This document shows, piece by piece, positions 20,624 to 50,848 of a stretch of 64,000 bases of DNA (positions are counted from its first letter, which is position 1; every line of letters starts with the position of its first letter). This DNA comes from Kineosporia babensis (GTDB lineage Bacteria > Actinomycetota > Actinomycetes > Actinomycetales > Kineosporiaceae): the NCBI RefSeq assembly GCF_021129305.1, contig NZ_JAJOMB010000003.1, forward strand, positions 62,001 to 126,000, written 5' to 3'. The notes under the pieces are model-generated. The model did not search any database. It saw only the letters and a program-made list of their open reading frames with translations, and had not been told where the DNA came from. The position numbers were made by a program, and so were the translations under genes.

Positions 20624-20633
20624 GGGAGCACAG

Positions 20634-21557: not shown

Positions 21558-21566
21558 GGAGTCCAG

Positions 21567-25833: not shown

Positions 25834-25837
25834 CGCC

Positions 25838-28848: not shown

Positions 28849-28879
28849 GGCAGCAGCATATCGACGGAGCGTGCTCTAC

Positions 28880-28901
28880 TCATCAGAGTTGACTCTGATG
28901 A
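28880..28901. promoter_or_regulatory. TetR operator TCATCAGAGT-TG-ACTCTGATGA
   Basis: Perfect 10-bp arms around a 2-nt spacer, centred between the divergent TetR gene (31 bp away) and the hydrolase gene (38 bp away). A further half-site GAGTCA follows at about 28909. TTGACT inside the dyad (28889-28894) could be the -35 element for the hydrolase, so binding would block the promoter. Confidence 0.7.
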
Positions 28902-28939
28902 ACTGTTAGAGTCACCGCACCCACTTGAGGAGGATCCCC

Positions 28940-29641: not shown

Positions 29642-29779
29642 CCCGAAGCCGGGCCGCGCGGGTTACCGGCCCGTGAACGCTGATGTCGGGCAGATGTCCG
29701 CGGGCGAGGACGGCGGTGATTCGCGCCGCACCGGACGTCGGAACCACCTTTTGCGTTGGCAAGATGCCATATTCGCGCC

Positions 29780-32035
29780 ATGGCGATCCCTACGCAGACG
29801 CAGATCGATGCACGGCATCCCTCGCTGCAGGATGTCGATCCCTTCATCGGAACCGCCGCGACCGGCCTGCCACCGGCCCGCGGCCTGGCCGCCACCTGGT
29901 GGTTCCCCAAGCCCCAGGTCGGCAACACCCACCCGGGGGCCACCTCACCGTTCGGCATGGTCTCGGCCTGCGCCTACTCCGGCGCCTACCCGACCGGGTA
30001 CGGGCGCTACGGCAAGAACACCCAGGGCGTGCCGGAGACGATCTTCCCCCGGCTGGAGGCCAGCGGGTTCACGCACTTCCAGCAGAGCGGTACCGGCATG
30101 ATCCGCAAGTACTACAACTACGTGCGGGTCACGCCGATGGTCCAGCCGCTGGACGACCTGGGGCAGTCCTGGGCGCTCGGCGACGAGACGGCGCACCCGG
30201 GCTACTACGCGGCCAGCCTGGACACCGGCATCCGCTGCGAGATCACCGTGGGCGAGAAGGTCGCCGTGCACCGCTACACCTTCCCCGAGAGCCGCAGCGC
30301 CCGCGCCGTGGTCGACCTGACCTGCGGCGGGCTGGCGATCGACCGCAGCCGCACGGTTCCGCTGCGCGCCCAGGTCGAGATCACCGGCAAGGGCCAGGCT
30401 CAGGGGACGGTGGTGGTGGAGGGGGTGCCGCTGTCGTTCTACCTGGAGGTGGACTCCCCCGGCTGGAGGCAGATGCTCTGGCACGACCGCCGGCTGATCG
30501 ACGGCGGCACCCGCCTGGACTTCGACAGCATCCGGCACACCACCCTGCGGGCCTTCGGCCTGGTCTTCATCGGGCCCGCCACCGCCGGGCAGAGCATCGA
30601 GCTACGCATCGGCTTCTCGCTGCGCGGGCAGGAACAGGCCCAGGAGAACCTGCGGCGTGAGTGCGGCTCGGGCCAGCCGGCCTTCGACCGGGTGCAGGTC
30701 AACACCGGCGAGCGCTGGGCCCGGCACCTGGAACAGATCCAGGTCGAGGGCGGTACGCAGGCCCGGCGCACGGTGTTCGGCAGCGCGCTGTACCACTCGC
30801 TGATCAAGCCCTGCATCGCCGACGACGAGAGCCCGTTCTGGCCCTACGGCGGGCCGTTCGCCTTCGACATCTGCACCATGTGGGACATCTACAAGACCCA
30901 ACTGCCGCTGCTGCAGGCGATCGCCCCCAAGCGCGCGGTGGACATCATGGAGTCGCTGATCCGGGTCTGCGAGGAGGAGGGCAACTTCCCGATCGGCTAC
31001 CGGATGGCTCGCGGCGCCGACCGCTTCTCCCGGCAGGGCTCGGCCCTGGCCCACACCGCGCTGGCCGACATCCACGCGCTCGGTATCGGCGATCTGGACT
31101 GGCAGTGGGCCCTGGTGCACATGGACGACGACCTGCGCCGCCAGTACGGCGAGGACTTCCTGGACAAGGGTGTGGTGCACCCGATCACGCACACCCTGGA
31201 CCTGGCCTTCGCGCACCACTGCACCGCCCGGATCGCTCACGCGCTGGGCGACGACGACCTGTCCCGCAGTCTGTTCGAGTACAGCGAGAACTGGGTGAAC
31301 GCCTTCGAGGAGGACACCGGCCTGCTGCGTGAGTCCACGTTCTACGAGGGCGGCAAGTGGAACTACTCGTTCCGGCTGATGCAGGACATGGCGGCCCGGA
31401 TCAAGCTGGCCGGCGGCGACGCCGCGTTCGTCGCCATGCTCGACTCGTTCTTCGGTTTCGGCGCCCCGCCGGTGCGTCAGCCCGGCCGGGCCGCCTCGCT
31501 GCAGGAGATGGCCGACGGGTACGCCCTGAACCGGTTCGAGGGGCTGAACAACGAGCCCGACATGGAGGCGCCCTGGGCCTACCACTGGGCCGGGCGCCCC
31601 GACCGCACGGCGCAGGTCGTGCACTCGGCGCTCACCTGGCAGTTCGGGACCGGCCCGGGCGGGCTGCCCGGCAACGACGACTCCGGGGGCCTGAGCGCCT
31701 GGTACGTCTGGGCCTCGCTGGGGCTGTTCCCGGTGGCCGGACAGAATCTCTTCCTCATTCATCCACCGGCTTTTTCCCGCAGCGTCATGCAGTTCAGCCA
31801 GGGCGAGCTCACCATCGAGACCACCGGGCACATCGAGCAGAAGATCAGCAGCGACGGTATCGACGAGGAGCCGCCCGTGCAGTACGTTCAGTCGGCCACG
31901 CTCGACGGGAAAGCGCTGGACGGGCCCCACATCCCGGCTTCCCGGCTGCATCGTGGCGGTCGTCTCCACCTCCAGCTCGGTTCCAGCCCCACCTCGTGGG
32001 GCCAGAGCGTGCGTCCCCCGTCCCTGTCCCACTGA
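29780..32035 (+). CDS. GH92 alpha-mannosidase
   Basis: A calcium-dependent exo-alpha-mannosidase of 751 residues. GH92 landmarks are VDPFIGT at the N-terminus, GNTHPGATSPFGMVS, FTHFQQSGTG, and in the catalytic (alpha/alpha)6 barrel FDICTMWDIYKTQLPLL and GLPGNDDSGGLSAWYVWASLGLFPV. No signal peptide is visible, so it seems cytoplasmic, whereas many GH92 enzymes are exported. The ATG (MAIPTQ) lacks a ribosome site; CATATT about 8 nt upstream suggests a leaderless or near-leaderless transcript. The GT4 gene follows by 20 bp. Confidence 0.93.
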   Translation: MAIPTQTQIDARHPSLQDVDPFIGTAATGLPPARGLAATWWFPKPQVGNTHPGATSPFGMVSACAYSGAYPTGYGRYGKNTQGVPETIFPRLEASGFTHFQQSGTGMIRKYYNYVRVTPMVQPLDDLGQSWALGDETAHPGYYAASLDTGIRCEITVGEKVAVHRYTFPESRSARAVVDLTCGGLAIDRSRTVPLRAQVEITGKGQAQGTVVVEGVPLSFYLEVDSPGWRQMLWHDRRLIDGGTRLDFDSIRHTTLRAFGLVFIGPATAGQSIELRIGFSLRGQEQAQENLRRECGSGQPAFDRVQVNTGERWARHLEQIQVEGGTQARRTVFGSALYHSLIKPCIADDESPFWPYGGPFAFDICTMWDIYKTQLPLLQAIAPKRAVDIMESLIRVCEEEGNFPIGYRMARGADRFSRQGSALAHTALADIHALGIGDLDWQWALVHMDDDLRRQYGEDFLDKGVVHPITHTLDLAFAHHCTARIAHALGDDDLSRSLFEYSENWVNAFEEDTGLLRESTFYEGGKWNYSFRLMQDMAARIKLAGGDAAFVAMLDSFFGFGAPPVRQPGRAASLQEMADGYALNRFEGLNNEPDMEAPWAYHWAGRPDRTAQVVHSALTWQFGTGPGGLPGNDDSGGLSAWYVWASLGLFPVAGQNLFLIHPPAFSRSVMQFSQGELTIETTGHIEQKISSDGIDEEPPVQYVQSATLDGKALDGPHIPASRLHRGGRLHLQLGSSPTSWGQSVRPPSLSH

Positions 32036-32055
32036 TTTCTGCCAGGTAGGTCCCG

Positions 32056-33372
32056 ATGAGTCTTCCGCGCCGCCGTCTCGTCATCGCTGTCCGAGCCGAT
32101 CCGGTGATCTGTGGCCATTCGGGCGAGGCCCGAAACCTGGCCGAAACAGCGCTGACTCGAGGATTTGACGATGTCCGTCTGCTCACCTGGCCGATGGAGG
32201 CCCTCGAGGCGGCCGGCCTGCCGCTGAAGCCGGTGGACCGGCTGCTGCCCTACAGCCCGGGGATCACGGTCGAGCGCCCGGAGCCGATCGGTGACTACCG
32301 GGTGCCCGACGGCCGGTACATCGCCGGGCTCACCGGCCGGCTGGTCGAACTGCTGAGCGAACCGGTGCCCACGGTGTGCCTGTCGATGTACCTCACCCCG
32401 CACACCGACGTGGTGAACAACGCGGTCACCGCCGCCCGCGCGGCCGGGTTACGCCCGCAGGTGCGCACCATGGCCAAGGCGGTCGGCTCGGACGTCACCA
32501 ACGTGATCAGGAACGCGCTGCGGGACGGCCATTTCGGCGCCGCGATCGCGCTGTTCACCACGTTCCTGGCCAACGACGAGGTGATCGCCGTCTCGGAATA
32601 CACCCGCGAGGAGATCGTGGCCTGCGCCGAGGAGGTGGACCGGCTGGCCGGGACCACGTTCGCGGACGAGTGCCGGCAGCGGGTGACGATCGGGTACCCG
32701 CCGATCGACACGTCCGCCTACCTGGACCTGGATCCGGCGGAGGTGGACGCCGTGCTGGAGCGCCGGGGTCTGCAGCGCGGTGGCTACCTGCTGTTCCTGT
32801 CCCGGGTGGCCCGGGCCAAGGGCGTTTACGACCTGGTGACGGCCTTCGCCCAGGCGCGCTGCCGGGAGCAGGTGAAGCTGGTGATCGCCGGCACCGGGCC
32901 CGCCCTGGAGCACATCCAGGCGATGGCGCTGGAGGACGAGCGGATCATCTTCCTCACCGACGTCAGCGACGAGGAGAAGCCGATGCTGATGAACGGCTGC
33001 GCCGCCTACACCCTGCCGACCAAGCCCGAACCCGACTTCGTGGAGACGTTCGGGATCGCCCTGGTGGAGAAGATGCTCTCGGGCGGTGGCCCGGTGATCA
33101 CCACGATCACCGGCGGCACCGGGGAGGCGGTGGGCGACACGGCCATCGTCATCGAGGCCGGGAACGTCCAGGCGCTGTCCGACGCGATGGACCATGCGGT
33201 ACTGGAAATGGGTGTGGAAGAACGGGAGACGATGGCCCGGCGGGCTCTGGAGCACGCCGTCGCCTTCGACCGCGAGCGGGTTTTCGACGCCCTGTTCCCG
33301 CCGGAGCCCCTGACCACCTTGACCGACCTGCGCGAACCCGGCCGGGATCTCAACGTGACCGAGCCGATCTAG
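32056..33372 (+). CDS. GT4-family glycosyltransferase
   Basis: A 438-residue GT-B-fold retaining glycosyltransferase. The C-terminal nucleotide-sugar domain shows YLLFLSRVARAKGVYDLV, LVIAGTGPALEHI and the E-x7-E motif in ETFGIALVEKM, followed by a glycine-rich TTITGGTGEAV. It is probably co-transcribed with the GH92 mannosidase. A pairing of a mannosidase with a transferase could serve remodelling of a mannosylated glycan. The donor and acceptor are unknown. Confidence 0.85.
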   Translation: MSLPRRRLVIAVRADPVICGHSGEARNLAETALTRGFDDVRLLTWPMEALEAAGLPLKPVDRLLPYSPGITVERPEPIGDYRVPDGRYIAGLTGRLVELLSEPVPTVCLSMYLTPHTDVVNNAVTAARAAGLRPQVRTMAKAVGSDVTNVIRNALRDGHFGAAIALFTTFLANDEVIAVSEYTREEIVACAEEVDRLAGTTFADECRQRVTIGYPPIDTSAYLDLDPAEVDAVLERRGLQRGGYLLFLSRVARAKGVYDLVTAFAQARCREQVKLVIAGTGPALEHIQAMALEDERIIFLTDVSDEEKPMLMNGCAAYTLPTKPEPDFVETFGIALVEKMLSGGGPVITTITGGTGEAVGDTAIVIEAGNVQALSDAMDHAVLEMGVEERETMARRALEHAVAFDRERVFDALFPPEPLTTLTDLREPGRDLNVTEPI

Positions 33373-33894: not shown

Positions 33895-34098
33895 CCCGAG
33901 CGGGTGGGAAAGCCGCCCCTGGTCGGGGAGACAAGCGTCCATTGGTGGTGACCTGACCGGCACGAGGCCCCAGGATCTGGACTACAGCAGGTGACCAATG
34001 TAGGTGGGCTGTCAAACCTTCCTTAACTCTCTGCAGCACCGTTGTGGTCCCTGTCCAGATTCGTCACCGTGGAGGTCGTGGCGACGACCGGGAGCGTA

Positions 34099-35361
34099 GT
34101 GACGGAACAAGACCTCGCGGACCACTGGCTGGACACCGGTGGCATCCCGGTCCTGAACGGCGACGGCACCAAGGTCTACCCCAAGCGGTCGGACCTTCGC
34201 CGGGCCGAAGCCCGCGCGACCACCCGGCGCGGCGCCGGTACCCGCCCCGTCGGCGCCCGCCGGTTCGACTCGCTGCCCAGCCACGAGCGTCCCTCCGCTC
34301 CGATCTCCGCCCTGCGCAGCCCCCAGGCCAGCCGACGCCCCGCGCTGCAGGATCGGTACTCGATCGCGACGGTCCCCACCGCTGCCGTGCTGCCTACCCC
34401 GCGCACCAGCCCGCGGCGTCCGGCCGGTATCGACGTCCCAATGCCCCCGTCGCCCGACGCCTTCCACCGGGTTCCCCCGCAAGCCGCGCCCATCGCCGTC
34501 TCCACCGACTGGGGCCTGGACCTCACGGAGGAGGAGTCCGCCCCGTCCGACGTTTCCCCGCGCTCGGGGCGGTTGCGTGGCACGGCCACCCGACTGCTGG
34601 TGATGGCCTTGGTCGTCGGCGCCGAGGGCGTGGCGTTCTCCCAGTTCGCGGGCCCGATCGCGGCGCCGGACAGCAATGCCACCACCACCGCTGCCTTCGC
34701 CCTCGAGGACGCTCAGAAGCAGGCTCAGCGAGACGCCGCGGCGCAAGAGGCTGAGGAGGCTCTGGCGGCGGAGAAAGAGCGGGCCGAGACCACGGCGGTA
34801 GCCCTGGAGAAGGTGAAAGACGCTTCGCCGGCCAAGGCGCAGGCGGCCCTGGACCAGGCGAAGAAGGCCAAGGCCACGCAGGCCCGCGAGCGCAAGGAAG
34901 CGCAGGAGCGCAAGGAGAAGGCCGAGGCGGCGCGAGAGGCCAAGGCCGCCCAAGCCGCCCAGGCAGCCGAGAGGAAGAAGGCCGCCGAGCCCAAGGCCGA
35001 GGAGAAGAAGGCGGCCCCCACCTCGAGCCGGAAGAAGGCGCTGGCGGTGGAGAACGCCCGGAAGAACCCGCAGGCCGCGGCCAAGGTCCTGCTGACCGAC
35101 CGGGGCTGGTCGTCCACCCAGTACACCTGCCTGGACTCGCTGTGGACCCGCGAGAGCAACTGGAACTACCAGGCCACGAACCCCTCGTCCGGCGCCTACG
35201 GCATTCCTCAGGCCCTGCCCGGCGACAAGATGGGCGCCTCGGGCTCGGACTGGAAGACCAACCCGATCACCCAGATCCGTTGGGGCCTGGACTATATCGC
35301 CGAGCGCTACGGCAATCCGTGCGGCGCCTGGGAGCACAGCGAGGCCAAGGGCTGGTACTGA
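34099..35361 (+). CDS. Membrane-anchored SLT/Rpf-like transglycosylase
   Basis: A putative cell-wall lytic transglycosylase of 420 residues. The layout is a basic, Pro-rich N-terminal region (about 1-165), one membrane helix (about 167-187, LLVMALVVGAEGVAFSQF), a long Ala/Lys/Glu coiled coil (about 205-320) and a C-terminal SLT-like domain of about 75 residues with catalytic Glu in WTRESNWNYQATN and GAYGIPQALPG. The GTG start (TEQDLAD) has GGGAG 4 nt upstream; a TTG 19 codons earlier is possible. The coiled coil may span the wall or mediate oligomerisation. It is related to the C-terminal catalytic module of actinobacterial Rpf-like proteins. Confidence 0.82.
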   Translation: MTEQDLADHWLDTGGIPVLNGDGTKVYPKRSDLRRAEARATTRRGAGTRPVGARRFDSLPSHERPSAPISALRSPQASRRPALQDRYSIATVPTAAVLPTPRTSPRRPAGIDVPMPPSPDAFHRVPPQAAPIAVSTDWGLDLTEEESAPSDVSPRSGRLRGTATRLLVMALVVGAEGVAFSQFAGPIAAPDSNATTTAAFALEDAQKQAQRDAAAQEAEEALAAEKERAETTAVALEKVKDASPAKAQAALDQAKKAKATQARERKEAQERKEKAEAAREAKAAQAAQAAERKKAAEPKAEEKKAAPTSSRKKALAVENARKNPQAAAKVLLTDRGWSSTQYTCLDSLWTRESNWNYQATNPSSGAYGIPQALPGDKMGASGSDWKTNPITQIRWGLDYIAERYGNPCGAWEHSEAKGWY

Positions 35362-35851
35362 CCGCCCCATCCGCAGATCGAAACCTCGGCAGGGGTCTCG
35401 TTCTCGCATCTTTCGCCGGCGCAGTGTTTCCCCCTGGGACGCTGCTGCCCTGCAACCGCACACCTCTGGACTTTCGCCGGAAAAGGTGATCCCCGAAGGA
35501 TTCTCGACGCCCGTGCGACGGAAGAATCTCCTGCTGCAGAAGTCATTCATGGGATTTTTTTGAACCATTGATTTCCCGGAGATCGGCGATGACCCAGGCC
35601 CCCTCTGAGGGCATTGCGGTTAATCCCGAGTAGTTTTCGAGAAAAGTTCCCGGGTTCTGCACTTTGCCCGTTTCTGCGCCAATTGACTTGTATGGTTGGC
35701 AGCACTTGATCGTTATTCCGGCGAATGCCCGCACGCCCTGACCGTGCGCTCTCGCCGTCCGGCCGAGTCTTCCCGGCCCGCCGTCCATCTCGCTTCCTGG
35801 TCCCCTGCCAGGAGGCCATCGATCATGCCCGTCCGTGCTCAGGAGACCTGT
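35362..35851. promoter_or_regulatory. AT-richer 490-bp leader before the PKS
   Basis: This gap is clearly less GC-rich than its surroundings, with T- and A-runs near 35550 and 35630. TTGACT at about 35683 is the best -35 candidate, but no good -10 at 16-18 bp was found. AGGAG at 35841-35845, 6 nt before the GTG, sets the PKS start. The open frame continues upstream to 35696, so an alternative start at 35825 (ATG) cannot be excluded. No operator or riboswitch was recognised. Confidence 0.5.
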
Positions 35852-38800
35852 GTGAAGAAAACCGAAGTGGCGATCGTCGGCATCGGATGCCGTTTCCCCG
35901 GGGGAATCCGCTCCCCCCAAGGGTTCTGGGAGTTCCTGGTGCAGGCCCGGGACGGCATCACAGCCGTCCCGGGTGATCGCTGGGACATCAACCGTTACTA
36001 CGACGCCGATCCGGACACCCCGGGCCGGATGTACACCCGGCACGGCGGTTTCCTGACCGATCCACTCTGGGAATTCGATGCCGAGTTCTTCGGTATCTCC
36101 CCGCGTGAGGCCCAGGTGATGGACCCGCAGCAACGTCTGCTGCTGGAGGTCACGGCCGAGGCGCTGGACGACGCGGGCCTGGCCGGGCGGGTCGCCGGCG
36201 AGCAGGTCGGGGTGTACGTCGGTGGTTTCATGAGCGACAACCAGGCGGCCCGGCACACCTCCGGGGCCCGGTCCCAGATCACCTCGCACACGGCCACATC
36301 CGGCACCCACACCATGCTCAGCAACCGGCTCTCGCATGTTTTCGACCTGCGCGGGCCCAGCCTGACCATCGACACCGCCTGCTCGTCGTCGCTGGTGGCC
36401 TTCCACCAGGCGCACCGGGCCGTGCTGAGCGGAGAGTGCTCGGTGGCGCTGGTCGGCGGGGTGAACGCGATGCTCAGCCCGGAGACGTTCGTCTCCATGA
36501 GCAAGGGCCGTTTCCTGGCTGCGGACGGCCGGTGCAAGACCTTTGACGCCGCCGCCGACGGTTACGCCCGGGGTGAGGGCGCGGGTCTGCTGGTCCTGAA
36601 GACCCGCGAGGCGGCGGAACGGGACGGAGACCGGATCTACGCGGTGATCTGCGGAACCGGGGTGAACCAGGACGGCCGCACGCCCGGTATCACGGTGCCG
36701 AACCCGCAGTCCCAGACCGCGCTGATGCGGCAGGTTCTGGGCGAGGCCGGGGTGGATCCGGCCGAGGTGGGCTACATCGAGGCACACGGAACCGGCACTG
36801 CCGTGGGCGATCCCCTGGAGATGCAGGCGATCGGCGCCGCTCTGGGGGCAGTGCCCGGGCGGCGCCGGGACCTGTGGGTCGGTTCGGTGAAGGCCGCGAT
36901 CGGGCACACCGAGGCCGCGTCCGGCGTGGCCAGCGTGATCAAGACGGTCCTGTGCCTGCAGCACGCCGAACTGGTACCGCAGGCCTGGCTGAACGAGCTC
37001 AACCCGGCCATTCCGTTCGGGCAGTACCGGCTGCAGGTCCTCACCCAGGGCCAGGACTTCCCGGTGCTCGGGGAGCGACGTCTGGCCGCGGTCAACAGTT
37101 TCGGTTACGGCGGGACGAATGCCCACGCCCTGCTGGCCAGTGCTCCCGAGCCCGCGCGGCGCCCCGGTACGGCCGGGCCGGTGCAGGTGTTCCCGCTGTC
37201 CGGTCGCACGGTTCAGGGGGTCCGGGAGATCGCCACCAAGTGGTCGCAGGCGCTGGAGACGGTGAAACCCCAGGCGTTGTGCGCGGCGGCCTGGACCCGC
37301 CGGGCGCATCACCCGCAGCGGATCGGCCTGCCCTACACCGATGCCGAAGACCTGCGCCGCAAGCTCGATTCCGTCGCCGCCGGTGAAGGCCGGGTCCCGG
37401 CCCGGACGGTGACCGCGACGAACCCGACCGTGGTGTTCAGCGGGATGGGACCGCAGTGGTGGGGTATGGGCCGTGGCCTGCTGCAGGCCGAGGGCCCGTT
37501 CGCCCGGGCCGCGGCCGAGGTCGACGAGGCGTACCGCAGCATCAGCGGTGTCTCGCTGATCGGCGAGCTGCTGCGCGACGAGGACTCCTCACGGATCACC
37601 CGCACCGAATTCGCCCAGCCCACGAATTTCCTTGTGCAGGTCGGCCTGATGGCCGAACTGCGCAGTCTCGGGGTACAGCCCACCCGGGTGATCGGCCACA
37701 GCGTCGGCGAGGTGACGGCCGCCTACGTCAGCGGAATGCTCAGCCTCCAGGACGCTGTCGCGGTCGCCTACCATCGCAGCCGCCTGCAGGCGACGCTGGC
37801 GCACACCGGCGTGATGCTGGCCGTCGGCCTCTCCGAAGCCACCGCCGCCGAACTGATCCGAGGCCGCGAGATCGATGTGGCAGCGGTGAACAGCCCCACC
37901 GGGGTCACGCTCGCCGGCTGTTCCGAGGCGATCGACGAACTGGCCCTGCTGCTGGAGGCGGACGGCGTGTTCGCCCGCAAGCTGCGGGTCGAGGTGCCCT
38001 ATCACAGCCGTCTGATGGATCCGATCCTGGAACCGCTGACCACCGATCTGGCCGGAATCTCGCCTCGGCCGCCCGAACTGGAGGTCTGGTCGACCGTGAC
38101 CGGGCAGCCGGCCGCCGACCAACTGTGGGGGGCCGCCTACTGGGCCCAGAACGTCCGTAAGCCGGTTCTGTTCGCCGAGACCCTGGCCAGGATCGTCGAC
38201 GCCGGTGAGACCGCCTTCCTGGAGGTCGGCCCGCATCCGGTGCTGTCCGGCAACATTCGCGAGATCCTGGTGCGCTCGGGTGTGAGTGGGGTGGCCGTGC
38301 CCACGCTGGTGCGTCGCCAGGACGACGCCGAGAGCATGTCCACGGTGGTGACGGACCTTTACGCGGCCGGTTGTCTCGACACCGCCCTGGCCACCGCCCA
38401 CGCCCCGGGCGCCGATCCCGGGGTCGCCCCGCACCTCGAACTCCCCCGGCATCGTTTCGACCGCTCCCCCTTGTGGGTTCAGGCCCCGAGCGTCGAGCGC
38501 GAGTGGCTGGGAACGCCCGATGCGCCGCCGCTGCTCGGTGACCGCACCGAAACGGCAGCGCCGCAGTGGCAGGCCGACCTGTCGCGAGCCCAGCTGCCTT
38601 GGCTGCCGGACCATGTCGTGGCGGGCACGGTGCTCCTGCCGGCCACCGGATTCGTGGACGCAGCCCTGTCGGCGACCCTGGCGCTGGGGGCCGAGTCCGC
38701 GGTGCTGGAGGCGGTCCGGGTGATCGCGCCGCTGGTGATCGGCGAGAGCGAGGTGCCGGTCCTACGCACCTCGGTCGAGCCCAGCACCGGCCGGTTCACC

Positions 38801-41800
38801 ATCAGTTCCCGTCCGGCCACCGGCGGCGAATGGACGGTGCACGCCACCGGGCGGGTGCTCGATGCCCTGGCCGAGCCGGTCCCCGGGGTCAGCGGGGTGC
38901 CGATCACCGCGGAGCACATCAGTGGTGTCGATCTGTACGCCCGTCTCTCGGCTCGCGGCCTGGAATACGGCCCGGCCTTCCGGCGGGTGCAGCACCTGGA
39001 GCTGAGCCAGGATCGCGTGGTGGCCGAGGTGGACGGCTCGGTCGGCTCCGACGGGCATCCGGCGCATCCGGCGGTCACCGATGCAGCCCTGCAGTGCGTG
39101 GCCGCGCTGATGGCCCAGGCCGGTGGCGGTCCTCTGGTGCCGTCCGAGATCCGGGCCGTGCGCCTGCTGGCTGCACTGCCGGCGCGGATCCAGGTCACCG
39201 CCGATCGCGTTGCCGGCGAAGAACTTCAGGCCGATGTCGTCCTGCGTGATCCGGACGGCGCGGTGGTGATGGAACTGCTGGGGGTCCGGTTCCGCCCGCT
39301 GACGCCGGCCCAGCCGGTTCTCGCCGAGCTCGGCCCGCTCTGGTACGAGCCGGTCTTCGAGGCCGTGGCCGAGCGGGAAAGCACCTCGGTAGCGGAAGCG
39401 CTGGTCGCGTTGCCCCTGCACGCCGACGGTCTGCCTCTGGCCGCGGCACTGAACGCCCGTCGTCCCGGGACGCACCTGATCGACGCTCTGGCCGGGTGCG
39501 AGGGCCCGCTGAGCGCCGAGCGGGTGCAGGCCCTGCTCACCGAACCGCTGTCCCACCTGCCGGCCGATCAGCCCGTCGTGGTGGCCGTGATCGCTCCAGC
39601 GGCTCAGGTCGCTCCCGGCCAGTTGCTGCCGGAGCACGGCGCGGCTGAGGTGACGGCGCTGGTCGGGGCCTTGGCCGGGGTGGCCCGGTGCCTGCCGGAG
39701 GCCAGTGAGGCCGGGCTGGCGGTGGTCGTGGTCACCCAGAACGCCTTCGCCCTGCCCGGTGACCGGACCGGTCCCCAGCTGCTGCCGGCCGCGCTGGTGG
39801 GAGCCCGCCGGGTGCTGCTGAACGAGCAACCGCACGTGCGGTGGCGGCTGGTCGACACCGCACAGCAGACCGAGGACGACCTGGACTACCTCGCCCGGGA
39901 ACTGTCCGCCGACGGCCCGGACGAGGTGGCCCTGCGCGACGGCGTGCGCCTGGTGCCGGTCCTGCGCCGCACGCTGCCCGAGCTGCTGGAACTGCGCGGG
40001 CTGGCCTCACCGGTCCTCGACCAGGAGGAGTCGTTCGCGATCGAGGCGCCGGGGTCCCTGGCCGGGATCCGCCTGCGCCGGGTGCCACGACGCGCTCCGG
40101 AACGAGGTGAGGTCGAGGTGCGGATGGAGAGCCTGGGCCTGAACTACAAGGACGGACTGAAGGCGATCGGCCTGCTCACCGAGGTCGAGATGGAGGGCAC
40201 GTACTTCGGCACCGGGCTGGGCATGGAGGGCCTGGGCGTGGTGACCCGCACCGGGCCGGACATCACCGAGGTGAAGGTGGGCGACCGGCTGATCGTGGCC
40301 GCCCGGGGCATGGGCCGGCGCTTCGCCACCATCCGGCTCGACGAAGGCGGCACCGTCCCGGCCCCCGCAGGCTGGGACAACGCCGAGGACTTCGCCTCGG
40401 CCGTCTCGTTCCTGACCGCGCATTACGGCCTGGCGCACGCAGCCCGGCTGCGGGCGGGCGAGACCGTCCTGATCCACGGCGGGGCCGGCGGCACGGGCCG
40501 GGCCGCCATCCAGGTGGCCCGTTCTCTGGGCGCCACGGTCATCGCGGCCGCCGGTACCCCACAACGCCGGGCCGAGGTCGAAGCTGCGGGCGCGCACTAT
40601 TCGGTCCGCTCCCGTTCGATCGGCTTCGTCGAGGAGGTCCTGGCCCTGACCGGCGGACGAGGCGTCGACGTCGTCCTGAACACCGCCCCCGGTGAAGTCA
40701 CCCAGCAGAACCTCACCGTGGCGGCCGAGTTCGGCCGGATCGTCGAGGTCGGCAAGCAGGGCATCTACACCGGTGCGGTGCTGGATCTGCGGCCGTTCGA
40801 CAAGAACCTCTCCTTCACCGCGATCGACCTGGACCGGATGATGCGGCACCGTCGCGACCTGGTGCTGCAGCTGATCGGCGAGGTGAGCGATCGGTTCGCC
40901 GAGGGGCAGTACCGGCCACTGCCGACCCAGGTGTTCGGGCTCGGCGACCTGTCCGGAGCCTTCGACGCGGTGATGCGGGGCAGCACGAAGGCAAGGGTCT
41001 GCCTGGATCTGAGCACCCCCGCCCCGGCCGCGCTGCCGGCCGTCCCGACCCCGGGGATCCGGCCGGACGCGACGTACCTGATCACCGGTGGGTTCGGCGC
41101 GTTCGGCCTGGCCATCGCCCGCTGGCTGGCCGGGCAAGGAGCGCGCTCGCTGGTGCTGGTCGGCCGCGGCGGCGCAACGTCCGCGGCGGCCCGCTCCACT
41201 CTGGCCTACCTCGAGGACGAGGGGGTGAACGTGGCGATCGAGCGCACCGACGTCACCGTTGCGGGGGCCCTGGACGCCGTCATCCGGCGCAGCAGCGAAC
41301 TGCGCGGCGTCTATCACACGGCCGGGGTGCTGCAGGACGAGTCGTTCGCCGACCTCACCCAGGAAGGAGCCGAGCGGGTCATCGGCACCAAGGTCGCCGG
41401 GCTGGAACACCTGCACCGATCGCTGGTCCGGGCCGGGGCCGAGCTCGACCACCTGGTCCTGTTCTCCTCCACCAGCGCCCTGACCGGGACGGTGCCGCAG
41501 TTCTCCTACGCGGCGGCGAACAGCGTGCTGGATGCCGCCGCGGCCCGGCTGCGGGCCGACGGCTGGCCGGCCGTGGCCGTCGACTGGGGAGCCATGCGCG
41601 GCGGTGGGATGGCTCAGTCCAGCGAGGAGATCGAGCGGTACCTGGGCCTGCTCGGCCTGAACCCGATCGGGATGGACCGCGCGGGCGAATACCTCGGCGA
41701 GGTCATCGCTTCCGGGGTGAGTCAGGTGGCGGTCGTGGATGTCGACTGGGCGCAGTGGGCCCGCACCCATCCGGAGGCTGCCCGCAGTTCCCGCTTCGCC

Positions 41801-42127
41801 GGCCTGATCGCCGAGAACGGCGGCGGCGAGTCCGGCAGTGCCCTGAGGGCCCAGCTTCTCGCGCTGGAGCAGGAGCAACGGACGCAGGTGGTCTCGGCGA
41901 TCCTGACCGATCAGGTGGCCACGGTGCTGGGTATCCCGGCCGACTCGATCGACCCGGCGACTCCCCTGCCCGAGCTGGGCATGGACTCGCTGATGGCGGT
42001 CGAGCTGGGCGCCCGGATCAACCTGGCCCTCGGCCTGGAGGTCTCGGCCCTGGAGTTCAGCCGGGGCGGAGGCCTGCACGGCCTGGCCGGACGTTTCACC
42101 CTGCGACTGACCGGAGAGAAGGCATGA
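35852..42127 (+). CDS. Highly reducing iterative type I PKS (KS-AT-DH-ER-KR-ACP)
   Basis: A 2091-residue single-module polyketide synthase with a full reductive loop. KS (about 1-425): Cys177 in TACSSS, His312 in EAHGTGT, His352 in GHTEAASG. AT (about 525-830): Ser617 in GHSVGE, with PYHS at the specificity position, not diagnostic. DH (about 885-1160): His921 in DHVVAGTVLLP and Asp1077 in VTDAALQ. ER (about 1395-1715): GGAGGTGRAA near 1542. KR (about 1735-1925): GGFGAFG, Tyr1886, Asn1890. ACP: Ser2046 in LGMDSLMAVEL. There is no thioesterase, reductase or condensation domain, so release must come from elsewhere; the stop overlaps the start of an alpha-oxoamine synthase (ATGA). All catalytic residues are present, so a saturated acyl chain is predicted. 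No loading module is present, so it probably works iteratively. Confidence 0.95.
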   Translation: MKKTEVAIVGIGCRFPGGIRSPQGFWEFLVQARDGITAVPGDRWDINRYYDADPDTPGRMYTRHGGFLTDPLWEFDAEFFGISPREAQVMDPQQRLLLEVTAEALDDAGLAGRVAGEQVGVYVGGFMSDNQAARHTSGARSQITSHTATSGTHTMLSNRLSHVFDLRGPSLTIDTACSSSLVAFHQAHRAVLSGECSVALVGGVNAMLSPETFVSMSKGRFLAADGRCKTFDAAADGYARGEGAGLLVLKTREAAERDGDRIYAVICGTGVNQDGRTPGITVPNPQSQTALMRQVLGEAGVDPAEVGYIEAHGTGTAVGDPLEMQAIGAALGAVPGRRRDLWVGSVKAAIGHTEAASGVASVIKTVLCLQHAELVPQAWLNELNPAIPFGQYRLQVLTQGQDFPVLGERRLAAVNSFGYGGTNAHALLASAPEPARRPGTAGPVQVFPLSGRTVQGVREIATKWSQALETVKPQALCAAAWTRRAHHPQRIGLPYTDAEDLRRKLDSVAAGEGRVPARTVTATNPTVVFSGMGPQWWGMGRGLLQAEGPFARAAAEVDEAYRSISGVSLIGELLRDEDSSRITRTEFAQPTNFLVQVGLMAELRSLGVQPTRVIGHSVGEVTAAYVSGMLSLQDAVAVAYHRSRLQATLAHTGVMLAVGLSEATAAELIRGREIDVAAVNSPTGVTLAGCSEAIDELALLLEADGVFARKLRVEVPYHSRLMDPILEPLTTDLAGISPRPPELEVWSTVTGQPAADQLWGAAYWAQNVRKPVLFAETLARIVDAGETAFLEVGPHPVLSGNIREILVRSGVSGVAVPTLVRRQDDAESMSTVVTDLYAAGCLDTALATAHAPGADPGVAPHLELPRHRFDRSPLWVQAPSVEREWLGTPDAPPLLGDRTETAAPQWQADLSRAQLPWLPDHVVAGTVLLPATGFVDAALSATLALGAESAVLEAVRVIAPLVIGESEVPVLRTSVEPSTGRFTISSRPATGGEWTVHATGRVLDALAEPVPGVSGVPITAEHISGVDLYARLSARGLEYGPAFRRVQHLELSQDRVVAEVDGSVGSDGHPAHPAVTDAALQCVAALMAQAGGGPLVPSEIRAVRLLAALPARIQVTADRVAGEELQADVVLRDPDGAVVMELLGVRFRPLTPAQPVLAELGPLWYEPVFEAVAERESTSVAEALVALPLHADGLPLAAALNARRPGTHLIDALAGCEGPLSAERVQALLTEPLSHLPADQPVVVAVIAPAAQVAPGQLLPEHGAAEVTALVGALAGVARCLPEASEAGLAVVVVTQNAFALPGDRTGPQLLPAALVGARRVLLNEQPHVRWRLVDTAQQTEDDLDYLARELSADGPDEVALRDGVRLVPVLRRTLPELLELRGLASPVLDQEESFAIEAPGSLAGIRLRRVPRRAPERGEVEVRMESLGLNYKDGLKAIGLLTEVEMEGTYFGTGLGMEGLGVVTRTGPDITEVKVGDRLIVAARGMGRRFATIRLDEGGTVPAPAGWDNAEDFASAVSFLTAHYGLAHAARLRAGETVLIHGGAGGTGRAAIQVARSLGATVIAAAGTPQRRAEVEAAGAHYSVRSRSIGFVEEVLALTGGRGVDVVLNTAPGEVTQQNLTVAAEFGRIVEVGKQGIYTGAVLDLRPFDKNLSFTAIDLDRMMRHRRDLVLQLIGEVSDRFAEGQYRPLPTQVFGLGDLSGAFDAVMRGSTKARVCLDLSTPAPAALPAVPTPGIRPDATYLITGGFGAFGLAIARWLAGQGARSLVLVGRGGATSAAARSTLAYLEDEGVNVAIERTDVTVAGALDAVIRRSSELRGVYHTAGVLQDESFADLTQEGAERVIGTKVAGLEHLHRSLVRAGAELDHLVLFSSTSALTGTVPQFSYAAANSVLDAAAARLRADGWPAVAVDWGAMRGGGMAQSSEEIERYLGLLGLNPIGMDRAGEYLGEVIASGVSQVAVVDVDWAQWARTHPEAARSSRFAGLIAENGGGESGSALRAQLLALEQEQRTQVVSAILTDQVATVLGIPADSIDPATPLPELGMDSLMAVELGARINLALGLEVSALEFSRGGGLHGLAGRFTLRLTGEKA

Positions 42128-43416
42128 ACCCCGAAGACCTGCTGGCCAACGCCCGCCGCCTGATCGAGGCCCGGCCCACGAACCAGGTGGCGGCCGGCGA
42201 GCGCCGCGTGGCCACCATCGAGGAACTGCCGCAGGTCGTGCTCAGCGGCGAGCGCGACTCGTTCCTGGCCGCCGGGCTGGCCCTGCTCGACGCCCCCAAC
42301 CCGTACTACCTGCCGCACAACGGTGTGAACGGCGCCGAGGTGGAGATCCTCGGGCGCACCATGGTCAACTTCGCCGGGTACAACTACCTGGGCCTGGCCG
42401 GTGACCCGCGGGTGCAGGCGGCCGCCGCCGAGGCGATCGGCACGTTCGGCACGTCGGCCTCGGCGGCCCGGCTGATCGGCGGTGAACTGCCGTTGCACGC
42501 CCAGCTCGAGGAACGCCTGGCGGCGGCCTACCAGGTGGACGACGCGGTGGTCACCGGCAGCGGTTTCCTCACCAACGCGGCGGCGCTGGCGTTCCTGCTC
42601 GGCGAGGGTGATCTGGCGGTGTGCGACTCCCTCGTGCACAACAGCATCGTCTCGGGGACCCGGTGGGCCGGTTGCCGGCGGATGTCGTTCCAGCACAACG
42701 ACCCGGACGCCCTGGAGGCGCTGCTGAGCCGCAGCCGTCGGCACTTCGGTACTGCTCTGGTGGTGCTGGAGGGCGTCTACAGCATGGACGGCGACGTGGC
42801 CGCGCTGCCGGAGCTGGTCGAGGTGGCGCGCCGGCACGAGTGCTTCGTGATGGTGGACGAGGCGCACTCGTTCGGGGTGCTCGGCGAGACCGGTGCGGGG
42901 ATCCACGAGCACACCGGACTGGCGGGCACCGACGTCGATCTGTGGATGGGGACCCTGTCGAAGTCGATGGCCAGCTACGGCGGCTATCTGGCCGGGTCCC
43001 GGGAGCTGATGGCGGCGATGAAGATGTCGGCGGCCGGGATCAGCCTGTACGCCGCGGCGCCACCACCGGCGCAGATGGCCGCGGCCGGGGCGGCGTTCGA
43101 CATCATGCTGGCCGAGCCCGGACGGCTGAAGCAGTTGCGTGACAACCAGGCGCAGATGCTCGGGGCGGCCCGGGCCGCCGGACTGGACACCGGTCTCGCC
43201 CAGCCCGGTACCCCGCTGGTGCCGGTGATCACCGGGGGCACCGAGACCACCATGCGGATCTGCCTGGCCCTGCTGGACCAGGGGATCCACACCACGGCGA
43301 TCGTGCATCCGGCGGTGGCGGAGACCGAGGGACGTCTGCGGTTCTTCGTCACCTCGGAGCACACTCCGGAACAGATCAGGCGGGCGGTCGCGGCGACCGC
43401 CCGGCTGATGGCCTGA
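42124..43416 (+). CDS. PLP alpha-oxoamine synthase, PKS offloading enzyme
   Basis: A fold-type I PLP enzyme of 430 residues related to serine palmitoyltransferase, AONS (BioF), KBL and CqsA. Key residues: PLP lysine Lys280 in TLSKSMASYGG, Asp245 and His248 in VDEAHSFG, His172 in VHNSIVSG. About 60 residues precede the family core. It is translationally coupled to the PKS and precedes a strong terminator; no biotin genes are nearby. The inferred role is decarboxylative condensation of an amino acid with the ACP-bound chain, releasing a long-chain alpha-aminoketone, as Fum8 does for fumonisin. The amino acid cannot be read from sequence. Confidence 0.9.
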   Translation: MNPEDLLANARRLIEARPTNQVAAGERRVATIEELPQVVLSGERDSFLAAGLALLDAPNPYYLPHNGVNGAEVEILGRTMVNFAGYNYLGLAGDPRVQAAAAEAIGTFGTSASAARLIGGELPLHAQLEERLAAAYQVDDAVVTGSGFLTNAAALAFLLGEGDLAVCDSLVHNSIVSGTRWAGCRRMSFQHNDPDALEALLSRSRRHFGTALVVLEGVYSMDGDVAALPELVEVARRHECFVMVDEAHSFGVLGETGAGIHEHTGLAGTDVDLWMGTLSKSMASYGGYLAGSRELMAAMKMSAAGISLYAAAPPPAQMAAAGAAFDIMLAEPGRLKQLRDNQAQMLGAARAAGLDTGLAQPGTPLVPVITGGTETTMRICLALLDQGIHTTAIVHPAVAETEGRLRFFVTSEHTPEQIRRAVAATARLMA

Positions 43417-43421
43417 AACTG

Positions 43422-43456
43422 GGACGGCCCACCGGCTCCAAGCCGGTGGGCCGTCC
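43422..43456. terminator. Bidirectional 16-bp terminator
   Basis: A perfect 16-bp stem GGACGGCCCACCGGCT with a 3-nt loop CCA, between the convergent alpha-oxoamine synthase (stop 5 bp before) and antiporter (stop 14 bp after) genes. It closes the PKS operon. Confidence 0.9.
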
Positions 43457-43470
43457 GCGCGGGCCGAGGA

Positions 43471-45732: not shown

Positions 45733-46995
45733 ATGCTCCCGCCCACCTACGCAACAGTCCTCCGCCCCGGGGAACATCTCTCCGACCGGGCGGTGAGCAG
45801 CCCGAACGGCGAGTTCAGCCTGGTGCACCAGCACGACGGCAACGTGGTGATCTACCGCAACGCCGACGGCCACGCGGTCTGGGCGACCGGCACCAACTTC
45901 CAGGGCGATGTCGATCTGGGCGCGCGCACGGGCCGGCTGACGCTACGCGAGAACGGTTCGCTGGCGGTGCAGGACTCCGACGGCATCTACCTGTGGCAGA
46001 GCCCGGCGCAGCCGAACCCGGCGCAGTTGAGCCTGGTGGTGACCGACCGGGGCCAGGCCCTTCTGGTGGACGGCTCGGGCCGGGAGGTCTGGTACTCGCC
46101 GCGCCCGCCCGAGTACTGGCGCGTGTGGAAGTCCGTGTCCGACGGCCACCGACTGCGCCGTGGCCAGACGCTGCGGGGGCAGTCCCTGACTTCGGCCAAC
46201 GGCCGCTTCACCTTGGTGTGGGACCACGGCGGCCAGGTGTACCTGCGGGAGAAGGACGTGGGGGTGCGCTGGCTACGGCGGCTCGAGCCGGGTGCCGGCC
46301 TGGTGATGGACGACGAGGGCAGCCTGGACGTCCGGCACCCCAACGGGACGGTGTCGAGCTGGACCCTGGCCCCCAGCTGGCAGGGCGTGCACGAGTGCTA
46401 TGTCAGCGACGAAGGACGGATCACGCTGGCCGACGGGTCCGGCCAGGTGCTGTGGGCCGGTGAGGCTCCTCAGGGCATGCTGCGGGACGCCGAGTGGCCG
46501 GCCGATATACCCGAGCGCCGGCTGCGGTCCTCGGAGCGCCCGGAGATCGACCTGTCCGATCACAACGAGTTCGACGCGCTGGTGGTACGCACCGACTTCG
46601 AGCATCCCGAGGCCTGGGCCCGGATCGTGGCCGAGCTGCACCTGCCGATGCAGGGCGTGCCGGACTCCGAGCCGGCGACGCCGCGGCTGATCGACGATCC
46701 GATCTGGGCCGGCGCCCACTACGAGGAGATTGTCTCGGCCCTGCCTGCGGATGCTCCCGAGGCGGTTTTCGTCGCGGACTCCGAAGCCATGAGCACCGAC
46801 GATCGCGGATTGCTGGCCGTTCACGCCGAACGACTGCTCAATCCGGAGGAATTCGCCGAGGACTTCGATCCGGACGAGGTGCCGGAGGCCTTCCGGATCG
46901 AGGCCCGGCAGGCCGAGCTGATGACAGTGAACCTGGCCCTGGCCAACTCGGACTTCGAGGACTGGGTGCACCAGGGAATCGACCTCAGCGCCTGA
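45733..46995 (+). CDS. B-lectin domains fused to DUF6924
   Basis: A 420-residue protein without signal peptide. Two bulb-type (mannose-binding) lectin units occupy about residues 8-125 and 135-245, each with LRPGEHL or LRRGQTL openings and NGEFSLVHQHDGNVVIY-type Q-x-D-x-N-x-V-x-Y repeats; in the second unit the Q/D/N/Y residues are largely replaced (LVWDHGGQVYL), so sugar binding there may be lost. The C-terminus (about 275-415) starts LVVRTDFEHPEAWARIV and ends NLALANSDFEDWV, matching DUF6924 as I remember it. The role is unknown. It converges on the glycan operon and overlaps its last gene by 11 bp. Confidence 0.75.
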   Translation: MLPPTYATVLRPGEHLSDRAVSSPNGEFSLVHQHDGNVVIYRNADGHAVWATGTNFQGDVDLGARTGRLTLRENGSLAVQDSDGIYLWQSPAQPNPAQLSLVVTDRGQALLVDGSGREVWYSPRPPEYWRVWKSVSDGHRLRRGQTLRGQSLTSANGRFTLVWDHGGQVYLREKDVGVRWLRRLEPGAGLVMDDEGSLDVRHPNGTVSSWTLAPSWQGVHECYVSDEGRITLADGSGQVLWAGEAPQGMLRDAEWPADIPERRLRSSERPEIDLSDHNEFDALVVRTDFEHPEAWARIVAELHLPMQGVPDSEPATPRLIDDPIWAGAHYEEIVSALPADAPEAVFVADSEAMSTDDRGLLAVHAERLLNPEEFAEDFDPDEVPEAFRIEARQAELMTVNLALANSDFEDWVHQGIDLSA

Positions 46996-48187
46996 AGAGT
47001 TCGGCCATCAGGTCCCGGCCGGGTAGGGCGTGCTGCCACCGCGCCACCCGGCCGAGGACACGTGAGGACCGTACGAGGAGCCGACCGAAACGCACCTCGC
47101 CCACGGTGTTCTCACGCAGCTGATCCACTGCGTCCTGCAGGAGAGCCACCAGGTCGTCCGAGGGTGCCTCGCCGTGAAACGTGGCCTGGTAACGGGCTCG
47201 GGATCGGGCCAGCCGACCCGGTGTCTCGCCGTCCGGGTAGACGGCCACGTTCAATCGGCACGCAAGCAATGCTTGGAGCAGCCGCGGTGAGACCGGTCCG
47301 TTCAGCGACAGCAGCAGGTTGGCCGGGTACTCCCCTCGGCTGACGTCCTCCGGCGGGATCCGTTCCAGCAGCGCCCGCTTCTCCTCCTCCTTCTCCTGCC
47401 GGCGGCTGTCGGGACTGGATCGGCCGGCCCAGTCCGGACCGTCGTGCCAGGCCACCGCCGCGGGCTCGTGGGCCAGCACGGCTCCAGCGTTCCAGGCGCG
47501 GAACGCGAACTCCCAGTCCTCGCCCCCGTAGTGCCGGAACGACTCGTCGAACCCGCCGATCTCGCTGAACAGTTGGGCGCTGCAGCACATCACCGCACTG
47601 ATCACGTACTGGTAGCTGGACGAATCCGCCCTCAGCAGATCGGAGCTGTCCCGGTATCCCCGGCTCAACCACTCCGGTGCGCCCAACTCCCGAGGCGCCG
47701 GCCCGTGTCCGTTGATCCAGTCCCTCACCTCCAATGGCGTCCAGCCCGCCAGATCGGCGTGCTCACGACGGCCGACCACCAGAGCATCAGGAACCAGGGA
47801 CGGTAGGCGCGAGATTGCTTCCAGGTATCCGGTGGTCGGGATGGTGTCCTGGTCCAAGAACACCAGCACCTGCCCCCGGGCCGATCGAACGGCCAGGTTA
47901 CGGGCTGCGGCAGCCCGAAAACCCAGATCCTCCTGGCGTACTACGCGCACGTCCAGAGAGCAGGCGTCGAGGGTCAAGGGTTGCGGTGAGCCGTCGTCGG
48001 CCACGATCACCTCGAACCGGGAACGCGGATAGCTCTGCAGGCGCAGCCCTTCAAGCAGCATCGCCAACTGCCGCTCACCCTGGTAATAGGGCACGATGAC
48101 GCTGAGGAACGGGCGAGGATGGGCTGCCGTCACCAGATCCCAGCGGTTGCCCGGCACCACGTACCGGCCGTCGGGCAGACAGATCAT
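46985..48187 (-). CDS. GT2-family glycosyltransferase
   Basis: A 400-residue GT-A-fold transferase. N-terminal LSVIVPYYQGERQL, IVADDGSPQPL, the metal-binding LDQD and acceptor-side FDESFRHYGGEDWEFAFRAW are all visible, giving a chondroitin-polymerase/GalNAc-transferase-like organisation. The C-terminal 130 residues are unassigned. Its start overlaps the stop of the preceding GT4 gene (ATGA). It is the last gene of the leftward glycan operon. Confidence 0.9.
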   Translation of the reverse strand: MICLPDGRYVVPGNRWDLVTAAHPRPFLSVIVPYYQGERQLAMLLEGLRLQSYPRSRFEVIVADDGSPQPLTLDACSLDVRVVRQEDLGFRAAAARNLAVRSARGQVLVFLDQDTIPTTGYLEAISRLPSLVPDALVVGRREHADLAGWTPLEVRDWINGHGPAPRELGAPEWLSRGYRDSSDLLRADSSSYQYVISAVMCCSAQLFSEIGGFDESFRHYGGEDWEFAFRAWNAGAVLAHEPAAVAWHDGPDWAGRSSPDSRRQEKEEEKRALLERIPPEDVSRGEYPANLLLSLNGPVSPRLLQALLACRLNVAVYPDGETPGRLARSRARYQATFHGEAPSDDLVALLQDAVDQLRENTVGEVRFGRLLVRSSRVLGRVARWQHALPGRDLMAELFRR

Positions 48188-49185
48188 CGGCTCAGGACCG
48201 GTCCGGGCCGGGACGGTTCCAGAGCCTGGGCATAGGCCGCCGCCACCGACGCCTCGTGCCGATCCGTAGGTGGCCCGACCTCCAGCCAGGACCGGGCCGG
48301 TTCGGCCAGGACTGCCCTCGCCGATTCGGCGAAAGACCCGGGCCGGTAGAGATTCACCAGCCCGGGGCAGGCCTCGGCCAGTTCCCGGGAGTAAGGACCG
48401 GCAGCCACCAACGGACGACGTCCGGCCGCGATCCAGCTGTTCAGCGAGCCCGACGCCGAGATGTTCGGGGCCGGGACGACGGGAAGCGCAACCTGCCGCA
48501 ACCTTTTCAGCAGATCCTCTTGCGGAACGTACCCGGTCACCTCGAAGCCGCGTCCGGATTGCGCGGCCCGAGACGACAGGTGAGCGATCAGACCGTCATG
48601 GCCCTCGGCCGGACGACCGATCGCGGTCAGCCCAAGATCGGTCGGCAGTTCGCGCATCTCCTCCAGCAGTTCCTCGTGCCCCTTGCCCGGGTAGAGAAAT
48701 CCGAAGACGGCGGCCTGCCGAAGTGGGCGGGGACGCTGCTGCGCTTCGATCGGCGAACCGGCAACCATGGGCAGCGGAACGACCTGAGCAACCACAAGCT
48801 TGGCGAACGTCTGCAAAAGGCCGAGTTCATGGCGGCTGTTCACGAAGACCGCATCCGCGGCTTCGGCCACCGCCCGGAACCCGTCCGCCCGGCGCCGGTA
48901 CCGCGATGGTTCGTCCCCCGGGTCCGGCAGGTCGTGCAGCGTCACGCTGAGCGGAACCGGAAGGTTCGCGCGCATCCGCAGGAACGCAGCAGCGGCCGCA
49001 CGAGCGTCCGGCCCGAAAAGCGCCTCGGTGTAATGCACATGCGCCCGCCGGATACCCTCCGGCTCCAGATTCTGCGGATCGGCCAGAAAGACTCGCCGAC
49101 CCCCGGTACTGCGGGCCAGCCAGTCCGCGAAGATCACCACCCCGTGCTCACGCGGCCCGATCACCAGATGCGTCACCTCGCTCAT
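48184..49185 (-). CDS. GT4-like glycosyltransferase
   Basis: A 333-residue GT-B-like protein. It shows LSVTLHDLPDPGDE in the N-terminal domain, VFVNSRHELGLL, then AAVFGFLYPGKGHEELLEEM at the start of the nucleotide-sugar domain and SASGSLNSWIAAGRRPLVA in place of the usual E-x7-E acceptor motif. The ATG start (MSEVTH) overlaps the stop of the upstream GT gene. It acts in the same pathway as its neighbours; the substrate is unknown. Confidence 0.8.
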   Translation of the reverse strand: MSEVTHLVIGPREHGVVIFADWLARSTGGRRVFLADPQNLEPEGIRRAHVHYTEALFGPDARAAAAAFLRMRANLPVPLSVTLHDLPDPGDEPSRYRRRADGFRAVAEAADAVFVNSRHELGLLQTFAKLVVAQVVPLPMVAGSPIEAQQRPRPLRQAAVFGFLYPGKGHEELLEEMRELPTDLGLTAIGRPAEGHDGLIAHLSSRAAQSGRGFEVTGYVPQEDLLKRLRQVALPVVPAPNISASGSLNSWIAAGRRPLVAAGPYSRELAEACPGLVNLYRPGSFAESARAVLAEPARSWLEVGPPTDRHEASVAAAYAQALEPSRPGPVLSR

Positions 49186-50755: not shown

Positions 50756-50848
50756 GGCACCGGGTCGCCGGGATCACATTACGAAAAGGCACCGTGCGTG
50801 ACGGCAGGCAACCGAAACGGACTTGTGCGACTGCCGGGGTTGCCGGTC

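Follow-up and report, generated by a model that had tools for sequence, protein, structure and literature searches.

The window analyzed here, a 64,000-nucleotide stretch of Kineosporia babensis DNA (contig NZ_JAJOMB010000003.1, positions 62,001 to 126,000), carries two adjoining genes that encode a type I polyketide synthase (PKS) and an alpha-oxoamine synthase (AOS). The two genes very likely build a long fatty chain and free it bound to an amino acid, which would give a sphingolipid-like amino-lipid by the route shown for the Sga pair of Pseudomonas, of which they are a distant, stripped-down relative. The pattern of conservation makes it very likely that they are inherited together as a biosynthetic cassette, and the chain built by the PKS is probably released by the AOS as an alpha-aminoketone. 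On sequence grounds the AOS is a member of the family that also holds the Sga-, Rkp- and Wcb-type enzymes, within which it falls in a separate actinobacterial sister clade. The features of the pair are given below, with domains from Pfam and PKS residues counted from the GTG at 35852; motifs were detected by a motif script and by reading, VPYHS by reading.

35825..42127, plus strand: PKS gene, 2091 aa from GTG 35852, with nine further codons if translation starts at ATG 35825
35810..35815, plus strand: AGGAGG, read from the sequence, the likely ribosome-binding site for ATG 35825
35861..36985, plus strand: KS domain, residues 4-378, with DTACSS, EAHGTGT and IGHTEA
37433..38356, plus strand: AT domain, residues 528-835, with GHSVGE and VPYHS
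38528..39313, plus strand: DH domain, residues 893-1154, with HVVAGTVLLP and TDAALQ
40103..40996, plus strand: ER domain, residues 1418-1715, with LNYKD and GGAGGTG
41069..41599, plus strand: KR domain, residues 1740-1916, with FSYAAAN
41903..42061, plus strand: acyl carrier protein (ACP) domain, residues 2018-2070, with GMDSL
42124..43416, plus strand: AOS gene, 430 aa, with the pyridoxal phosphate (PLP) lysine K280 in WMGTLSK and Ala115 at the position of Ser81 in serine palmitoyltransferase (SPT)

The PKS is one complete KS-AT-DH-ER-KR-ACP module with its motifs intact and no release domain detected by Pfam, and its stop codon overlaps the AOS start as ATGA. An earlier sequence-only reading of this DNA had described the module, the overlap and the AOS residues Lys280, Asp245 and His248 in the same way, and all of these hold: K280, D245, H248, H172 and R406 align with residues 236, 204, 207, 133 and 361 of E. 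coli BioF. The start of the PKS given there, GTG 35852, is in frame, but ATG 35825, in frame and preceded by the AGGAGG, looks like the better one. The AT motifs GHSVGE and VPYHS, which by common rules are of the malonyl type, suggest malonyl-CoA as the AT substrate.

Twelve NCBIfam models match the AOS, none of them at its cut-off. The BioF equivalog gives the top score (321.7 of 426.45 bits), the SPT equivalogs give 283.9 of 640, 270.4 of 500 and 217.4 of 670 bits, and those for KBL give 277 of 460 and 228.2 of 493 bits. The solved structure closest in sequence is the SPT of Sphingobacterium multivorum (3a2b, 8guh; 227 bits), with KBL (1fc4) at 181 bits, BioF (1bs0) at 129, and CqsA (2wk8) and the fungal SphA (9pep) at 89 each. 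In a tree of 99 rows, built in quick mode without bootstrap, the window AOS sits in a 20-row actinobacterial clade (SH-aLRT 94), together with enzymes from Nocardia, from a Mycobacterium metagenome-assembled genome and from genomes of the host's class or family. The sister clade of 71 rows (support 98) is mainly proteobacterial but also includes some Planctomycetota and isolated representatives of other phyla; it contains the rkp-type AOS of S. meliloti (L093), capsule enzymes of Burkholderia and Paraburkholderia, the Sga-type enzymes of Pseudomonas, and two PKS-AOS fusions, one of them from Streptomyces (L009). Both clades are separated with a support of 99 from the eight references (two BioFs, two KBLs, ALAS, SPT, ThAOS and a Bacteroides plasmid AOS), whose branches are long and whose internal order is unreliable. 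The Trp of the WMGT motif is found in all 91 rows of the AOS family and in none of the eight references.

It is extremely improbable that the PLP enzyme is simply the BioF or KBL of its host. What speaks for it is that the BioF model gives the AOS its best score and that the genome holds no other strong match to that model, the four further ones all lying at 39 bits or less; a search of the host genome with the AOS itself returned, at E<=0.001, only the AOS gene. Identity with BioF was rejected, however, on the score below cut-off, the position outside the BioF references in the tree and the lack of any BioB match over its cut-off in the genus (0/6 genomes, with weak matches of up to 38 bits in all six; the same cut-off is passed in 7 of 14 control genomes). 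Identity with KBL was likewise rejected, as both KBL scores lie below cut-off, the enzyme falls outside the KBL references and no tdh gene adjoins it. Since the host has no BioF match over the cut-off and the genus no such BioB match, a biotin role is very unlikely, and the grouping within BioF that would have refuted the sequence-only reading did not appear. A side observation from the same searches is that Kineosporia may be unable to make biotin, because the host and its five congeners all lack BioB over the cut-off and the host lacks BioF over it as well.

To collect relatives, eight PKS-linked AOSs were aligned and used as the query against named genomes, a choice that favors PKS-linked loci. 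Among the best 80 of 574 relatives, 70 loci have a PKS match upstream of the AOS on the same strand and within 3 kb, as expected of a pair conserved together, and four end at a contig edge; the match upstream of L078 covers the KS-AT part only. Within the actinobacterial clade a PKS is present at 19 of the 20 loci, and the remaining one (L014) starts at a contig end. Distances in the KS and AOS trees are correlated, with r of 0.848 over 71 loci, 0.96 over the 15 from the actinobacterial clade and 0.819 over the other 56, and in each of the three sets none of 2000 permutations gave a value as high (for L022 the upstream KS was used). On a Planktothrix plasmid a whole PKS module is fused to the AOS (L098:1-7158), and a Streptomyces plasmid carries a KS-AT-ACP-AOS fusion beside an MMPL transporter gene (L009:6359-11197); these fusions indicate that PKS and AOS are coupled in nature.

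The closest described system is PfSgaAB of Pseudomonas fluorescens MYb115, an iterative PKS and an AOS that make sphinganines, the AOS (PfSgaB) being an SPT specific for L-serine (Peters et al. 2025, PMC12134224). The supplement of that paper covers 6,101 clusters, and in its main text rkp, capsule, Rhizobium and Nocardia do not occur. Pseudomonas loci L008, L037 and L069, chosen by gene order, serve here as stand-ins for MYb115; the gene order of L008 appears to fit the MYb115 locus tags. As in the window, one PKS gene is followed by one AOS gene, the PKS of L008 has the same domain set, and the stand-in AOSs are 45-49% identical to that of the window. The window PKS, in contrast, is about 400 aa shorter (2091 aa versus 2497 in L008), and its DH and ER Pfam matches are 264 residues apart versus 612; the window AOS and KS each lie in a clade apart from those of the Sga pairs, with Ala rather than Ser at the SPT Ser81 position; and, unlike the Sga type, the window pair has no short-chain dehydrogenase/reductase (SDR), lipoteichoic acid (LTA)-synthase-type or capsule gene adjacent.

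The capsule loci of rhizobia (rkp) and Burkholderia (wcb) also have a PKS and an AOS that adjoin or lie one gene apart (L093, L006, L007), though these sit within capsule-export gene sets and the window pair does not. Their AOS genes are presumably those called rkpG and wcbT. According to PMC3908369, wcbR/rkpA are type I PKSs in capsule clusters. The PKS-AOS arrangement accompanies capsule genes at the Shinella, Paraburkholderia, Pseudomonas and S. meliloti loci, and the first three also have LTA-synthase- or alkaline-phosphatase-type genes. The Sga-, Rkp- and Wcb-type pairs (L006, L007, L008, L093 and many of L023-L092) form one AOS family in capsule or LTA-synthase-type loci, and because the AOS of the rkp and wcb loci shares its family with the Sga type, the lipid of those capsule loci may be sphingoid. 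No paper linking rkpA or wcbR with a sphingolipid was found among the open-access papers searched, though the link may well have been published elsewhere, and none was found there that combines sphinganine, Nocardia and polyketide synthase. As the pair belongs to a described kind, the main claim of the sequence-only reading was anticipated by SgaAB (2025) and the rkp/wcb capsule pairs, and the pathway type is less new than it seemed there.

Other comparisons are more distant. The S. multivorum SPT shares the GTxSKS motif with the window AOS and provides the closest solved structures, but it lies outside the family clade, lacks the Trp of WMGT, and has Asn52 and Ser81 where the window enzyme does not conserve them. 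In fungi, PLP enzymes such as Fum8 and SphA free a reduced polyketide with decarboxylation. The proposal that the window pair is a compact counterpart of fumonisin synthesis cannot be kept beyond an analogy of mechanism, because SphA scores 89 bits against 227 for the bacterial SPT; close kinship with the fungal AOSs was rejected on the same scores. The swf PKS of a sponge symbiont is likewise a single KS-AT-DH-ER-KR-ACP module, but its partner is a reductase-sulfotransferase rather than an AOS and its KS has HATGT where the window has HGTGT, and membership in that family was rejected on these two differences. Related literature includes the vitroprocines of a Vibrio, amino-polyketides whose release, judging from labelling, depends on PLP (PMC4523872), as well as PMC6148460 and PMC4698589 (TamD).

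In the proposed mechanism the PKS would iterate with malonyl units, reducing each fully, and the saturated chain would stay on the synthase's own ACP. The AOS would form a PLP aldimine with an amino acid, and this would attack the ACP-bound thioester with loss of CO2, so releasing a long-chain alpha-aminoketone, which with serine as the amino acid would be of the 3-ketosphinganine type; reduction of the ketone, the head group and export would be supplied by genes elsewhere. Iterative full reduction is probable because there is a lone complete module. Direct take-over from the ACP of the PKS is plausible, since in Rhodobacteria the SPTs favor an acyl chain carried on an ACP (PMC9386255). The release that the sequence-only reading had proposed is consistent with the conserved pair, the congruent trees, the fusions and the chemistry of PfSgaAB; the malonyl use, iteration, saturation, chain length, amino acid and product are all inferred.

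Against this proposal weigh six of the 80 related AOS genes, which have at least 1.5 kb of upstream sequence but no PKS match; the lack of any reported product or activity that we could find for a member of the actinobacterial clade; the absence of a 3-ketodihydrosphingosine (KDS) reductase gene next to the pair; and the pocket residues and KS tree described below. The six AOS genes without a PKS, together with the acceptance of acyl-CoA surrogates by PfSgaB in vitro (PMC12134224), would fit an AOS that draws its acyl-CoA or acyl-ACP from primary metabolism while the PKS makes something else, the two being neighbors without a shared product. This is improbable in view of the ATGA overlap, the congruent KS and AOS trees, the PKS-AOS fusions and the lack of a release domain in the PKS, and also of the loss of protection in Pseudomonas when either sgaA or sgaB is deleted (PMC12134224). 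The PKS-less loci themselves (L043, L047, L049, L084, L086, L087) have 3-10 kb of upstream sequence without a PKS match.

With release as an aminoketone still preferred, the choice of amino acid has to be weighed separately. At the SPT Ser81 position, 70 of the 71 sister-clade rows have Ser, with Ala in L009, whereas the 20-row actinobacterial clade is variable, with Ser in nine, Val in eight, Thr in two and Ala in one, the window enzyme having Ala115; the eight Nocardia loci L014-L021 have Val. The SPT Asn52 position is Tyr or Phe in all 91 rows of the family. A variant of the preferred reading would therefore keep the release mechanism and replace serine by glycine, alanine or another amino acid, giving a deoxy-type or other aminoketone, and we rate its chances as appreciable, somewhat short of even. 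It gains from the variability just described and from the references, which have Val at the Ser81 position in both KBLs, Thr in ALAS and Ala in ThAOS. It loses in that both BioFs have Ser there although BioF uses alanine. In the S. multivorum SPT, moreover, Ser81 contacts the substrate carboxylate through water and partly by its main chain, which leaves its effect on amino-acid choice unclear, and Asn52 takes part in a water network at the serine hydroxyl (both from PMC10196870). The SPT contacts are not transferable to the window AOS because the Asn52 position is Tyr or Phe throughout the family and the Ser81 position is Ala. That Ala also makes serine insecure as the window substrate; serine is likely the substrate of the Sga-type members, while for the window AOS it stands at about an even chance. 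The sphingoid label of the sequence-only reading is weakened by this residue and by the KS tree described next.

The origin of the PKS half was followed in a KS tree of 39 rows. Of these, 33 are pair KSs (10 of the 15 from the actinobacterial clade and 23 of the remaining 56), and the rest are L009, L078 and four further KSs encoded in the host genome. Actinobacterial and proteobacterial pair KSs fall into two separate clades, supported at 100/100 and 96/98 respectively, and another host KS (L122) groups with the actinobacterial ones (87/73). A single clade of actinobacterial and proteobacterial pair KSs is not rejected (p-AU 0.328). The tree neither proves nor rejects a common KS origin, so what was found in Pseudomonas may hold only in part for the window pair. 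One tentative scenario, which we consider rather unlikely, is that an actinobacterial PKS of separate lineage joined the AOS family independently of the capsule-linked proteobacterial pairs, that the pocket then diversified, and that the long-chain aminoketone of the window pair derives from a different amino acid than serine; to our knowledge this lipid type is not known from actinobacteria.

If the preferred reading is right, it would carry PKS-derived aminoketone synthesis of the sphingolipid type into a deep branch of the actinobacteria, and in minimal form, as a cassette of two genes that comes and goes. Such a pair would allow a clean test of whether the choice of amino acid lies with the AOS alone. 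The AOS family also unites the recently described sphinganine pair of Pseudomonas with the long-known capsule pairs of the rkp and wcb type, so that the lipid of the capsule loci becomes a testable question.

Two further features concern the borders of the pair.

43422..43456, plus strand: hairpin of 16 pairs with a 3-nt loop and no U-tract, a possible terminator between convergent genes
35362..43463, no strand assigned: accessory segment missing in congener G003 (L117), right edge approximate

The hairpin had been put down as a 16-bp terminator. The 16 pairs are there, and the folded stretch of 61 nt comes out at -49.3 kcal/mol (z -6.3), but there is no U-tract and a terminator scan returned 0 sites, passing over 43422-43456; a promoter scan also returned 0 sites. 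Upstream of the PKS lies the gene for a 439-aa protein without a Pfam match (34042-35361), and downstream a convergent gene of the Na/Ca-exchanger family, whose product transports ions and does not suggest itself as a lipid exporter. No reductase, N-acyltransferase or other lipid-tailoring gene adjoins the pair, in agreement with the sequence-only reading, nor does any SDR of the KDS reductase type, LTA-synthase-type or capsule gene; among the 80 related loci an SDR match is found at 34, the LTA type at 31 and the capsule type at 17, so none of them is universal in the family.

In congener G003 the genes for the 439-aa protein and the exchanger are directly adjacent and the PKS-AOS segment is missing. 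The exchanger gene is present in all six genus genomes, in the other four congeners with different neighbors, so that the empty site was observed in one of five congeners. Because the flanking genes lie side by side in G003, the host has gained, or G003 has lost, 8.1 kb between 35362 and about 43463, and the pair is an accessory cassette. At strict thresholds close relatives of the AOS are few. Within the genus only the host has one (1/6 genomes); in the family, 2 of 13 genomes do at 1e-90, and at 1e-115 the counts are 2 of 396 for the order and 3 of 394 for a sample of the class, the host being included each time. The cassette genes have a GC content of 71-72%, the flanks 69% and the 490 bases before 35852 60%. 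No target-site duplication or terminal repeat was seen at the segment edges, and the repeats listed (the 20 largest direct families and the 25 largest inverted pairs) all lie within coding region or are weak.

Other loci of the actinobacterial clade have neighbors of their own. Neighbor families were assigned by Pfam on one or two representatives each and otherwise by BLAST clusters. Eight of the 20 loci (L014-L021, Nocardia) have UnbV_ASPIC/FG-GAP-type and DUF1702-type genes in the roughly 6 kb that follow the AOS; all eight also have an SDR match and four a called RnfD-like membrane gene. UnbV_ASPIC/FG-GAP-, DUF1702- and RnfD-like-type genes are familiar from enediyne clusters. An MMPL-type transporter is found at five of the 20 (L011, L013, L033, L034, L038), and at L012 a PAP2_3 protein adjoins the AOS. 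None of these families (UnbV_ASPIC/FG-GAP, DUF1702, RnfD-like, SDR, MMPL, PAP2_3) adjoins the window pair; in the host genome the Nocardia SDR finds at best a match of 36% over 183 residues, which says little.

On the minus strand of the window, at 46985-51778, lie genes for a glycosyltransferase, a weakly matching glycosyltransferase-4, a methyltransferase and a sulfotransferase. Since they lie within 9 kb, they and the pair might form one larger locus for a glycolipid or sulfolipid, but this is very unlikely: the group is transcribed away from the pair, with the exchanger, HAD-family and DUF6924 genes intervening, the window and the flanks of the other 19 actinobacterial-clade loci have no gene cluster in common besides the PKS and AOS, and the empty site in G003 sets the cassette edge ahead of the exchanger. 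A single locus with these genes was rejected on those grounds. Farther upstream, 24514-33372 holds likely mannoside-utilization genes, with GH125 and GH92 glycosidases, an MFS transporter, a TetR regulator and a glycosyltransferase, and at 19331-22385 are three genes that resemble a sugar ABC transporter, by size only.

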